From Chitinophagales bacterium (lineage in GTDB: Bacteria; Bacteroidota; Bacteroidia; Chitinophagales; UBA2359): 64,000 bases of DNA. Where the stretch lies: contig JAHDFD010000012.1 in NCBI GenBank assembly GCA_020628375.1, positions 30,352 through 94,351 of the forward strand, in the 5' to 3' direction. The notes beneath the pieces are model-generated. The model was given only the letters and a program-made list of their open reading frames with translations. It was not told where the DNA came from and made no database searches. The translations under genes were made by a program, and so were the position numbers. The number at the start of each line of letters is the position of its first letter. The stretch's first letter is position 1. This document shows positions 8,146 to 15,400 of this stretch, in pieces.

Positions 8146-9342
8146 ATGTGCCAAGCGAGAAAAGTATTTTTTCTCGTACTAGCAATCGTTTGCCTGAACT
8201 ATTACACGGTAAATGCTCAGTGCGAGTGTACACTCACTCAAGGAAATCTTGAAACTACGATCGAACCCATACAGGGTAACGAAACAGCAGTCTCATTTTA
8301 CCAATATAATACACCAAGTGGAGCAAGTTCAAATACTAGCTTTGAGCAAGCCGATTATGCAACTATTTTCCTTTATGAGGATACGAATACGGGTGTGATC
8401 AGTTTGATCATCATCTTCGATTCTGCCGGACAAGGTGATGCAGATGGTGGAAATGCTTCTATCGGTTTCAATTTCGATTGTTTTGATGATAATCCTACCA
8501 TAGAGTTTTCAGATGATCCGGGTGAAGTTACTGGTTTGGGTGGAACCTGGGCTTGGGCCCCTTGTTGTACAGATGGTGCTGTTATAAGTGGATTGGATTG
8601 TACTAGTACTTTCGATCTTCTTGTAAATATAGGTGCAGGTATCACTAATTTTCAATGGCTTTCTGGAAGCGATAATATAGCCCTTAATCCCGATGTAGTT
8701 GAATTACCCTCATTGAACTTGCCAATTACAATTAACTGCTCAGTTGGAAATGACAAGGATAAAGATGGTGTTCCTGATGAACGAGACTTAGATGATGATA
8801 ATGATGGCATTTTAGATACTGTTGAAGGAAATGGAGACTTTGATGGTGATGGTGTTATAAACAGCTTAGACTCCGATTCTGACAACGATGGTATTCCTGA
8901 TGCCATAGAAGCATGTGGCTTCGGAACGGTCATGAATTCATTTAATGATGTTTGTGTATTAGCTGGAATTAAAGATTGTGAAGGAGTTATCCAAACTTGT
9001 ACACCTATGAATAGTGACGATGATGCTTTCCCCGATTACCTCGATCTCGATTCTGATAATGATGGTTGTTCAGATGCCGAAGAATCAGGTATAGTCGTAA
9101 ATGGAACACCCACTGTAAATGCTTGTGGTTTAATTGATGGAATTTGCTTTGATCCCGAAAACGACGATTGGCTTTTTGATAGAGTTACAGAATTCGTTTG
9201 TCCACCCAATTTAACTATACAATGTGATTCCGATTTGCCAGATGCTTTTGTAAACCTTACACAGTTTTTGAATGCCGGAGGCGTTGCTGAAGATGATTGT
9301 GGAGAATTAGATTTTGAACTTATAAATGAAACAGTAGAATGA
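8146..9342 (+). CDS. Secreted Ca-binding-repeat protein ending in a half HYR domain (cluster protein 1)
   Basis: Not a recognised named family. A Sec signal peptide (about residues 1-25, ending VNAQ) is followed by a Cys-rich beta region (25-200). Next come thrombospondin type 3-like acidic repeats from about residue 205 (DKDGVPDERDLDDDNDGI, DFDGDGVINSLDSDSDNDGI) and again near 305, which should bind Ca2+. The last 47 residues are the first half of a HYR-like Ig domain: CPPNLTIQC ... TQFLNAGG ... DDCG ... LINETVE, then stop. The second half (RIYRIxDxCGN...C...I) is missing. There is no ordinary type A or B T9SS domain. The stop overlaps the next start (ATGA), so translation is probably coupled. 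The gene lies first in a 26-kb cluster with the giant adhesin. Confidence 0.85.
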   Translation: MCQARKVFFLVLAIVCLNYYTVNAQCECTLTQGNLETTIEPIQGNETAVSFYQYNTPSGASSNTSFEQADYATIFLYEDTNTGVISLIIIFDSAGQGDADGGNASIGFNFDCFDDNPTIEFSDDPGEVTGLGGTWAWAPCCTDGAVISGLDCTSTFDLLVNIGAGITNFQWLSGSDNIALNPDVVELPSLNLPITINCSVGNDKDKDGVPDERDLDDDNDGILDTVEGNGDFDGDGVINSLDSDSDNDGIPDAIEACGFGTVMNSFNDVCVLAGIKDCEGVIQTCTPMNSDDDAFPDYLDLDSDNDGCSDAEESGIVVNGTPTVNACGLIDGICFDPENDDWLFDRVTEFVCPPNLTIQCDSDLPDAFVNLTQFLNAGGVAEDDCGELDFELINETVE

Positions 9343-12472: not shown

Positions 12473-15400
12473 ATGAAAAATATTTATTCAGTTTTAATCG
12501 GATGCTTGCTGTTTACCTCAACACAGCTTAGTTTACTAGGACAAAACCAAACTGGCTGTCCGGGTGATCCAACAGTGGTTATAAGAACCTATGAGGTTAC
12601 CGATGCTTCCGGTAATACAGAAACCTGCGAACATCGTATCACAATCATTGATGATACACCACCGGAAATATTCTGTCCGGGTAATTTGTTTGCTGAGTGT
12701 TCTATTACCGAACAAGCAGCTTATGCGAACTATGCAGCATTTACGGCAGCAGGTGGTACAGCCAATGATAATTGTGGAATAAATGAAAACTCATTTACAC
12801 TTTTATCTGAAACTTCAGATGGTAATACCTGCCCCGAAACTGTAACCAGAATTTATAGAATAGCAGATCAATGTGGTAATACTTCCACCTGTACACAGTT
12901 GATCGTTATTAATAATCAAACATCTCCCTCAATAGTTTGCCCAAGCGATTATATGGTCGATTGTTTTGCAGATATTAGTGTAGATGTAAACGATGCTACT
13001 TTCACGACAACCTGTCCTAATCCGACAACCGCTGTTGCAGGACCAACACTTATTGGTGGAAAGGCAAATTGTCCGGGAGCATTGTATGAAGTTGAATATG
13101 CTGTTACCGATAATTGTGGCGTTACAGAGCGTTGTAGTCAGTTTGTTTCTATTCGTCCGAATATGATGACCATTTCGTGTCCGGCAGATCAAAACTTAGC
13201 TTGTGGGGCGGCTTTACCAACACCCAATACGGCTTTAGTAACAGTAAATATGAATTTATGCCCTGCTGAAAATGCTGTAACGGTAGAATTTATTTCTGAT
13301 GCCTCTAATGGAGCAAGTAATTGTGGTACAAATGCTGAAATTATTTATAGAACTTATAAGGCAACAGATGCTTGTGGTAATACTGCTTTCTGTACACAAA
13401 CATTTACTTACACAGCAAATACAAATATCCCCGCAATAACAACATGTCCGGGAGACCTAACGATAACACCCACCGACGATCTTTGTAATGGTGTTGTTCC
13501 TGATATGACTGCTAGTCTTGTAGCATCAGATGATTGTACAGCATCAACTGATCTAATAATTTCCCAAAGTCCGGTTGCAGGAACCTTATTTGGTTTCAGC
13601 GAAGGAGATACGCAAATAGTAACTTTTACAGTAACAGATGAATGTGGGCAAACCAATACTTGTACTGCTACACTTACTTATGATGCAATCGATATTCCTT
13701 TTGATTTTGAAGTTGATGTAGATAACGAAACAAACTGTGATGCAGGTGATGGACAGATTATTACTGCTGCAACACTTGCCGATGAGTATTCAATAGATGG
13801 TGGTTTAACCTGGCAAACTTCAGGTACATTTACCGGACTTTCAGCGGGTACTTATGTAGTAATTGCTAAAAATATAGTCGGAACCTGTGAAGCGGTTACA
13901 GAGCCACAAGTGGTAACCATAACCGCCCCTTCTGCACCAATAATTATAGATGCAGTTGGAACAGATCCTTCTAATTGTAATCAGGCAGATGGAACTATTA
14001 CGGTAACAGCATCAGGTGGATCGGGAAGTTATGAATACTCTATAGACAATGGAGCAACATGGACGAATACAACCGGAAATTTTACTGGTCTTTCTGGAGG
14101 AACTTATACTATATTAGTCAGAAATGCCGCTGATGATTCATGTGTTACCCAATATGCTAGTGTTGTATTAGTAGATCCTGTTGCACCAATAATCGATTCA
14201 GTAATCGCTACTGATATAAGTGATTGTGGCTTAACCGATGGAACTATTGATATTAATGCAAGCTCTACAGCTGGCAATAGTCTTGAATATTCAATAGATA
14301 ATGGGGCAACATGGCAAACAGGTAATATTTTCATCAACTTATCTTCAGGCACTTATAATGTAATAGTCAGAAATGCAGATGGGACTTGTCCTGTTACAGC
14401 TTTAGCAACCATCAATACCTTAATTGAACCAAATATAACAACAGTAAGCCCTACTGACCCTTCAGAATGTGGTGCCACAGATGGCTCAATTATAATTACA
14501 GCAAGTGGTCCATCAGGAACACTTGAATATTCCATTAATAATGGAGCAACCTGGCAAGCATCGAACAGCTTTAGTAGTTTGCCTGCCGGAGAATATGATA
14601 TTATTGTTCGCTATGACGATGGAACCTGTGAGGTTCAGCACAGTACGCAGATAATATTAGATGATGGATGTTTTTATTGCCCGGATCTGAATACAATACA
14701 TGCAGATCAGGAAGATGTTTGCTCAGATGAAAATGTAAACTTTGTAGTAAGTGTTGATGCAAACCTAAGTGGAGAAACGATCAATTATCTGATCGTGAAT
14801 CCTGGAGCTTCAATAAATCCATATACTTACATTCCGGGAGCGAATGACATTACAGGTTCAGCAGTAGCTATTGGTAATATTCTGAATTTTACAGAAGCTA
14901 TGCCTGAAAATACTACTTGTGGAATGAACAGTGTTCAGATATATGCTTATTTATCTGATGATGCAAAAACGAATTTGAGTTTAGATGCGGATTGTAATCC
15001 TTTTGTTGCAACCACAGTGAACATTTGGCCGGATATGAGCAACGTTACCATTCAGGTAACTGAAGAAAATTGTATTGCTACTTTTCAGGCACTTTGTAAT
15101 GGCACGGCTTCTGACTTTACAGTTAGTCCAAGCAGTTATGTAATTCCTGAAGGGATAGATCCAGCTGTTGGAACACCTACCTTGACTATAAGTGGAGGCG
15201 TTGGAAGTGATTGCCCGGCGATTGCCTATACCACAGTTGATCTTCCTTTATGCGAACCACAATGCCCTGAAATTTATGATGCGCAATTAGATGCAGAGTC
15301 TGTATGTGAAGGTACAGGAACTGATATAACCATTTCAGTTGAACCCAATTTAGTAGGCGTACCTTTAACCATTGCTTATGGAAATGCAAATGAAGGGGTT

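Follow-up and report, generated by a model that had tools for sequence, protein, structure and literature searches.

The 64,000-nucleotide stretch analyzed here (hereafter, the window) comes from a Chitinophagales bacterium (GenBank assembly GCA_020628375.1, contig JAHDFD010000012.1, positions 30,352 to 94,351, forward strand) and contains, according to open reading frame (ORF) analysis, a head-to-tail row of plus-strand genes in which four genes (8146-12446) encoding the secreted-type proteins P1 to P4 precede the gene for a giant protein (12473-34597). Each of the four proteins ends in the first half of an HYR/immunoglobulin (Ig)-like domain, the second half of which forms the head of the giant, and we consider it probable that these halves close with the head, fixing any one of the four proteins as a tip on the giant stalk. 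This reading is based on the complementarity of the halves, the gene order, the purifying selection on the tails, and the fusion of the P1, P3, and P4 front modules to giants in relatives. The features of the locus are as follows:

7991-8021, plus strand: terminator-like hairpin of 13 pairs followed by a T run, separating the locus from the upstream gene (consensus match only).
8146-9342, plus strand: P1, putative tip protein 1, 398 residues, with a likely signal peptide, a front module (residues ~26-199), TSP3-like Asp-rich repeats, and a half-HYR tail.
9190-9339, plus strand: P1 tail, first half of an HYR domain (44 bits, profile columns 2-49).
9339-10523, plus strand: P2, putative tip protein 2, 394 residues, with a half-HYR tail; its start lies in an ATGA overlap with the P1 stop.
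10371-10520, plus strand: P2 tail, first half of an HYR domain, with a fourth Cys (39 bits, columns 1-48).
10520-11770, plus strand: P3, putative tip protein 3, 416 residues, with a likely signal peptide, a front module, an Ig_7 domain, and a half-HYR tail.
11609-11767, plus strand: P3 tail, first half of an HYR domain, with a fourth Cys (30 bits, columns 2-49).
11772-12446, plus strand: P4, putative tip protein 4, 224 residues, with a likely signal peptide, a front module with an EHWH motif, and a half-HYR tail.
12297-12443, plus strand: P4 tail, first half of an HYR domain (44 bits, columns 2-50).
12473-34597, plus strand: giant stalk protein, 7374 residues, with HYR domains, SprB repeats, and a weak C-terminal sorting domain of the type IX secretion system (T9SS).
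12473-12541, plus strand: likely signal peptide of the giant, judged by eye, cut before Gln24 according to the Bacteroidetes Q-rule.
12542-12655, plus strand: giant head (residues 24-61), second half of an HYR domain, with Cys29 at column 56, Cys52 at column 77, and Ser46 at column 71.
12656-12922, plus strand: first intact HYR domain of the giant (the neighbor domain in the structural model).
34370-34549, plus strand: weak T9SS sorting domain at the C terminus of the giant (PF18962, E 0.021; TIGR04183, E 0.0024; both under the curated cut-offs).

The P1/P2 and P2/P3 junctions are ATGA overlaps, P3 and P4 are one base apart, and a gap of 26 bases separates P4 from the giant gene, whereas terminator-like matches on the plus strand within the row comprise at most 10 pairs, all in coding sequence. 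With the hairpin before P1 and this tight spacing, the row looks like an operon. The start of P3 is most likely position 10520, as judged by the ATGA overlap with the P2 stop, rather than 10499 of the ORF list. By eye, likely signal peptides were recognized in P1 through P4 and in the giant, with Gln past the expected cut in P1, P2, P3, and the giant, and His in P4; parts of a study on Bacteroidetes signal peptides describe Gln after the cleavage site as the Q-rule (PMC5837995). The signal peptides, the T9SS domains in the window, and the names of some related proteins all point to a member of the Bacteroidota. The four proteins carry distinct front modules, as had been claimed in the original prediction along with their separate signal peptides. 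The TSP3_bac match in P1 is weak (Pfam, E 0.19).

Counted from the first Cys, the tails of P1, P2, P3, and P4 have 47, 47, 49, and 47 residues, share 16 invariant columns, and are 46-56% identical to the P1 tail. The HYR profile used here has 85 columns and was built from fetched loci, including sequences of this genome, and later rebuilt without this genome; the tails leave it at columns 48-50, bearing out the proposal that all four follow one pattern and stop at the same fold position. Residues 21-62 of the giant match columns 52-85 (39 bits). Because the tails end by column 50 and the head begins at column 52, the halves do not overlap; on the whole giant ORF, signal-peptide residues stretch the head match out to column 45. 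The HYR domain does not run on one continuous chain at this locus, its halves being encoded by separate genes, and the giant then continues with intact domains of the same kind, as stated in the original prediction. A sequencing or assembly artefact, in which false stops or frameshifts would have cut the domain, might be suspected in a 3.3 Mb assembly that is split into 41 contigs and 69% complete, but is scarcely credible: four separate stops fall at one position, the genes are coupled through ATGA, a P2 homolog on another contig (P0003, described below) has the same end, and the window's own P1 and P2 are recorded on 3 contigs.

When tail and head were joined into composites and scored with the genome-free profile, all four aligned over its full length, at 81.5 (P1), 73.0 (P2), 66.4 (P3), and 80.9 (P4) bits, which corresponds to percentiles 99.8, 95.3, 87.5, and 99.6 among 570 unique intact domains (median 52.6 bits), whereas single halves score only at the 6th-23rd percentile. 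The mature N terminus of the giant hence supplies the part missing from the tails, as had been proposed. In an alignment of the read-through chain with 68 intact two-domain stretches (4 from this genome), both halves are filled. Residue 51 of the chain is occupied in 7 of the 68, residues 52-306 in none, and residues 307-308 in 2; the final two tail residues are occupied in 18 and 9 intact stretches. This low occupancy at the junction indicates a cut that suits the domain, losing or duplicating little or none of it.

Such halves stand out among the 828 unique HYR stretches from the fetched loci, which were picked because they had matched: the P1-P4 tails are the sole first halves at a true ORF C terminus, and the giant head is the sole orphan second half behind a signal peptide, as judged by eye. 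One half-domain look-alike, in G003:C508 (L020), appears to be a frameshift, and three lone second halves (L150, L064, and L004, the latter being contig C4 of this genome) are edge effects that begin at residue 10 of the cut stretch.

The ratio of nonsynonymous to synonymous substitution rates (dN/dS) between the window tails is 0.19-0.46 in all six pairs, a sign of purifying selection. At their ends, the tails of P2 and P3 (10481-10521 and 11728-11768) share 93% identity over 41 nt, which suggests that this pair underwent duplication or gene conversion recently. The succession of homologous tails ahead of the giant, together with this stretch of identity, could also point to a DNA-level switch, whereby the four front cassettes would recombine at the half domain into full giant fusions. 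We regard such a switch as very improbable, given that identity among the remaining tail pairs is 60-74% in the listed repeats, that the three inverted repeats found (19-22 nt, 73-80% complementary) are not convincing, and that the giant's own start and likely signal peptide would have to be removed in the fusion.

Structure prediction, which had been suggested as a check, was applied to P3 and P4: AlphaFold2 closes the P3 tail and the giant head into one domain, in which a helix and two strands come from the tail and two further strands from the head, with a value of 67 for the first block of the head; when P4 was modeled headless, its last strand failed to form. Closure of tail and head into one fold is thus predicted by the model, which aligns end to end with structures of the Marinomonas peptide-binding domain (6x5w, 6x6q, and 5k8g).

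To the association of the halves, Cys covariation adds a predicted covalent lock that goes beyond the earlier interpretation. Across 563 unique full-length HYR domains from this genome and its relatives, the chief Cys columns are 4, 12, 37, 56 (or 54), 71, and 77, with 17 in some domains. Columns 4 and 77 both hold Cys in 351 domains, only one of them in 22 and 22, and neither in 168 (phi 0.83); phi stays at 0.83 when the domains are clustered at 50% identity (358 remaining), and none of 2000 shuffles reaches it. For column 12 and column 54 or 56, the respective counts are 374, 28, 35, and 126 (phi 0.72). Cys is present at columns 4, 12, and 37 in all four tails and in P0003, and the complete set 4, 12, 37, 56, and 77 occurs in 25 of the 563 intact domains. 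Because the strongest covarying pair is split across the two chains, as are column 12 and its best partner, two interchain disulfides are predicted from sequence, one linking the column 4 Cys of the tail to Cys52 of the giant, and the other, the less certain of the two, linking the column 12 Cys to Cys29. Parts of a report on the gliding and export machinery of this phylum describe disulfide attachment of outer-membrane proteins (PMC12635249), and covalent links of this type are accordingly not foreign to such cells. The tails of P2 and P3, as well as P0003, have an extra Cys in the last strand (FQC/FRC), which P1 and P4 lack.

Comparison with related genomes connects the front modules to giants. 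The P4 front is found at the N terminus of HYR-bearing open frames in 5 of the 297 other genomes of the order (G251, G157, G197, G255, and G040); a sixth genome, G104, matches only residues 94-199 of P4, and the other P4 matches inspected fall in the HYR tail and its vicinity. The P3 front is N-terminal in an HYR-bearing giant of G004 (1 of 197 other genomes; 63 of 190 columns identical), and the remaining P3 matches outside this genome fall in the Ig_7 region. The P1 front was detected in 5 of 197 other genomes (G154, G197, G014, G005, and G189), with 4 further genomes matching P1 only at the Asp-rich repeats. It precedes HYR domains in G005 and G154, in the latter at a distance, with residue 2221 as the position of the first full ones; the G014 contig breaks off, and no HYR domain was detected in the G189 frame. 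The P1 and P4 fronts occur in the same open frame in G197 and in the fetched loci of G255 and G251 (identity 45% in G251 and 44% in G197). These fused homologs tie three or more of the four fronts to HYR-bearing giants.

A P2 homolog, P0003, was found on a metagenome contig of 3803 bases. It is 82% identical to P2, matches P2 in length and in its three C-terminal residues, and keeps the half-domain end and all four tail cysteines.

The fusions of the P1, P3, and P4 fronts to HYR-bearing giants, along with lone first halves within chains of G197, G251, and G255, are also what would be expected if the four proteins were once-fused N termini cut from the giant by gene fission, the half domains being functionless leftovers. 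This scenario appears quite unlikely: four different proteins end at the same fold position, the tails evolve under purifying selection, the tail end is kept in P0003, the head is kept as well, behind its own likely signal peptide, and the composites outscore most intact domains.

HYR domains are split in other ways in the relatives. Apart from this locus, the L020 look-alike, and the three edge cases, twelve interrupted or lone halves were found, and the stretches L026, L080, L084, L087, L054, L085, and L088, but not L035, were inspected. The HYR domain is clearly interrupted within one chain in 2 of the 828 stretches (inserts of 170 and 100 residues), and seven first halves and three second halves stand alone inside chains. 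A lamin-tail-like stretch lies inside the HYR domain in L026 (residues 30-290) and in L084 (residues 625-900), with a Pfam match to LTD (PF00932) in L026 only (E 8.5e-7, below the cut-off); L080 has ~100 residues near the split, and in L054 FG-GAP repeats stand ahead of a lone second half. The inserts in L026 and L084 are located slightly earlier than the cut at our locus, ahead of the strand that ends the tail, and thus serve as precedents for an interruption but not for a cut at exactly this point. Collectively, the interrupted and lone halves show that insertions and joins recur in the HYR domain, and they lend plausibility to the split. In L087, L085, and L088 (from G197, G251, and G255, respectively), one chain combines the P4 front, an intact HYR domain, a first-half HYR standing alone, and the P1 front; these chains correspond, on a single polypeptide, to two of the four putative tips.

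The tails form a group of their own, scoring 100-110 bits against their own profile compared with 42.7 bits for the best other HYR half in the overlapping samples of 298 order, 395 class, and 296 phylum genomes. This tightness, and the presence of further HYR-bearing giants in the genome (on contigs C4 and C13), would suit an alternative in which the tail serves for sorting or anchoring by binding another partner, such as an HYR array or an export factor, its match to the giant N terminus reflecting only common descent. We consider this unlikely, because a generic binder need not end at the midpoint of a domain, nor need it have covarying cysteines that are encoded by the next gene. Moreover, among the 13 matches listed for this genome, only one second half lies behind a likely signal peptide, although, with the genome 69% complete, heads could be missing. 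One of the further giants (G000:C4, 9585-28142, 6186 residues) has intact HYR domains and a different N-terminal module of its own, and no half-domain genes were seen ahead of it.

Several observations weigh against closure of the tails with the giant head. The AlphaFold2 chain joined the P3 tail to the head via an out-of-frame filler, its alignment consisted of 68 intact homologs, which favors closure, its predicted template modeling score (pTM) is 0.49, and the headless control was P4 with a different alignment; in the structural comparison, the best VIA row spans the intact neighbor domain only, and every Z is <8. With the Pfam HYR models (PF02494 and PF23237), the composites reach 14.9-20.0 bits, below the cut-offs of 21.7 and 27, although an isolated intact HYR domain of the giant is also under its cut-off (23.1 versus 27), PF02494 passing in a longer giant stretch (30.3 bits). 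Column 12 covaries with column 71 as well (phi 0.43), where the head has Ser, rendering the second disulfide less sure, and the tails retain a Cys at column 37 for which no partner is evident; the latter loose end is not unusual, because 144 of the 542 domains with Cys at column 37 lack it at column 71. The P2 front has no fused relative, only weak partial matches in 3 of 197 genomes, and the P2 tail is less similar to that of P0003 (32 of 50 residues identical) than the rest of the protein past the signal peptide (283 of 319). Across 298 genomes of the order, 395 of the class, and 296 of the phylum (overlapping samples), with the weakest tail-profile matches inspected in part, no further locus was found to combine both halves, with tail genes before a gene for the complementary head; the shortest frame among the other matches (G060:C3, 460 residues) holds intact HYR domains. 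Tails without any complementary half had been named as a refuting sign, and this sign is partly present: G197, G251, and G255 each contain an in-chain first half with no detected second half, followed by other modules, including the P1 front and, in G197, also DUF2341 and an SprB repeat. An unpaired half is hence tolerated somewhere and is no proof of a partner. Finally, the giant's own match to the T9SS sorting domain is weak.

The proposal that alternative tips complete their fold on one stalk is nevertheless upheld in the fit of the halves, the AlphaFold2 closure of one of them, and the P1, P3, and P4 fusions, with the association itself standing as a prediction. A fuller mechanism can be put forward only tentatively, as one that could fall either way: the four tips and the one socket would work as a plug and socket made of a split domain, sharing one fold, locked by two interchain disulfides, and leaving the cell via the secretion signal of the stalk. 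In the simplest course, P1-P4 and the giant would be exported through Sec, tails and head would pair and become oxidized in the periplasm, and the pair would exit jointly through T9SS on the giant's signal. Joint export is suggested by the profile scans, in which no T9SS sorting domain was detected in P1-P4 and a weak one was detected in the giant. T9SS cargo is reported to require a C-terminal domain (PMC11285876), and, in another study, a fusion devoid of this domain served as a control in F. johnsoniae (PMC10994853). As there is one head per giant, the four tips would compete and exclude each other on a given stalk.

Elsewhere in the window, four tandem genes on the minus strand (36933-43058) include three that give identical proteins (99.9-100% DNA identity) and a fourth that is 98% identical, with a T9SS sorting domain in both copies scanned. 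This array, which adjoins a T9SS-tailed protein of 1726 residues, is a very recent tandem amplification.

The arrangement resembles several known systems. In chaperone-usher pili, one subunit finishes the incomplete Ig-like fold of another by donating a single strand, with the participation of a chaperone and an usher. The likeness to donor-strand complementation drawn in the original prediction holds insofar as the fold would be finished by another chain, but not in the manner of completion: each side contributes a sizeable part of the domain, in the model two strands from the head and two strands and a helix from the tail, so the hallmark of donor-strand exchange, a single donated strand, is absent, and disulfides are predicted. 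No chaperone or usher genes turned up in the Pfam scans, which covered part of the window and genome genes. In cohesin-dockerin scaffolds, several proteins with a common C-terminal module plug into a large scaffold; the locus would likewise combine such a module with a large scaffold, but here, plug and socket would be halves of one domain. No dockerin or cohesin family was detected in P1-P4 (Pfam, E up to 10, with filters dropping most matches >0.1) or in the first 733 residues of the giant (E up to 0.1). SprB-type giant adhesins are exported by T9SS. The giant resembles them in its SprB repeats, identified by the Pfam scan, and in a putative, weakly matched T9SS sorting domain (compare PMC10994853), but in our case the tips would be separate proteins, an arrangement not encountered among the open-licence papers listed. 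In SpyTag/SpyCatcher, engineered adhesin fragments re-associate and become covalently linked, and both this pair and Jo-In rely on an isopeptide bond. Re-association of two split adhesin fragments is described for Jo-In in parts of PMC5333627. The locus would share with these pairs the re-association of two adhesin fragments and the covalent link, except that they are engineered and use an isopeptide bond, whereas the pairs proposed here are natural, with predicted disulfides.

Structurally, the nearest precedent comes from RTX adhesins such as MpIBP and FrhA, in which, as sections of PMC10865825 describe, an Ig-like domain is interrupted in one chain to hold a ligand-binding module. There, and by prediction here, a sequence-interrupted Ig-like domain bears a ligand-binding module outward on a giant adhesin, but the RTX halves reside on one chain, whereas here they are encoded by separate genes, with four alternatives for one head. 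No Ig/HYR domain split between two secreted chains was found among the matches listed in the open-licence PubMed Central literature, in line with the earlier remark that no described case with this layout is known. The arrangement would extend fold complementation and the in-chain split Ig-like domains of RTX adhesins to one domain divided between chains, four to one.

If this interpretation is correct, a natural domain is shared between separate genes, which allows a very large adhesin to exchange its tip while its own gene stays unaltered. The arrangement would also offer a possible exit route for Bacteroidota proteins that have no T9SS signal of their own, permit sharp and inexpensive testing of interchain fold complementation, and place natural, disulfide-locking split pairs beside the engineered isopeptide ones.

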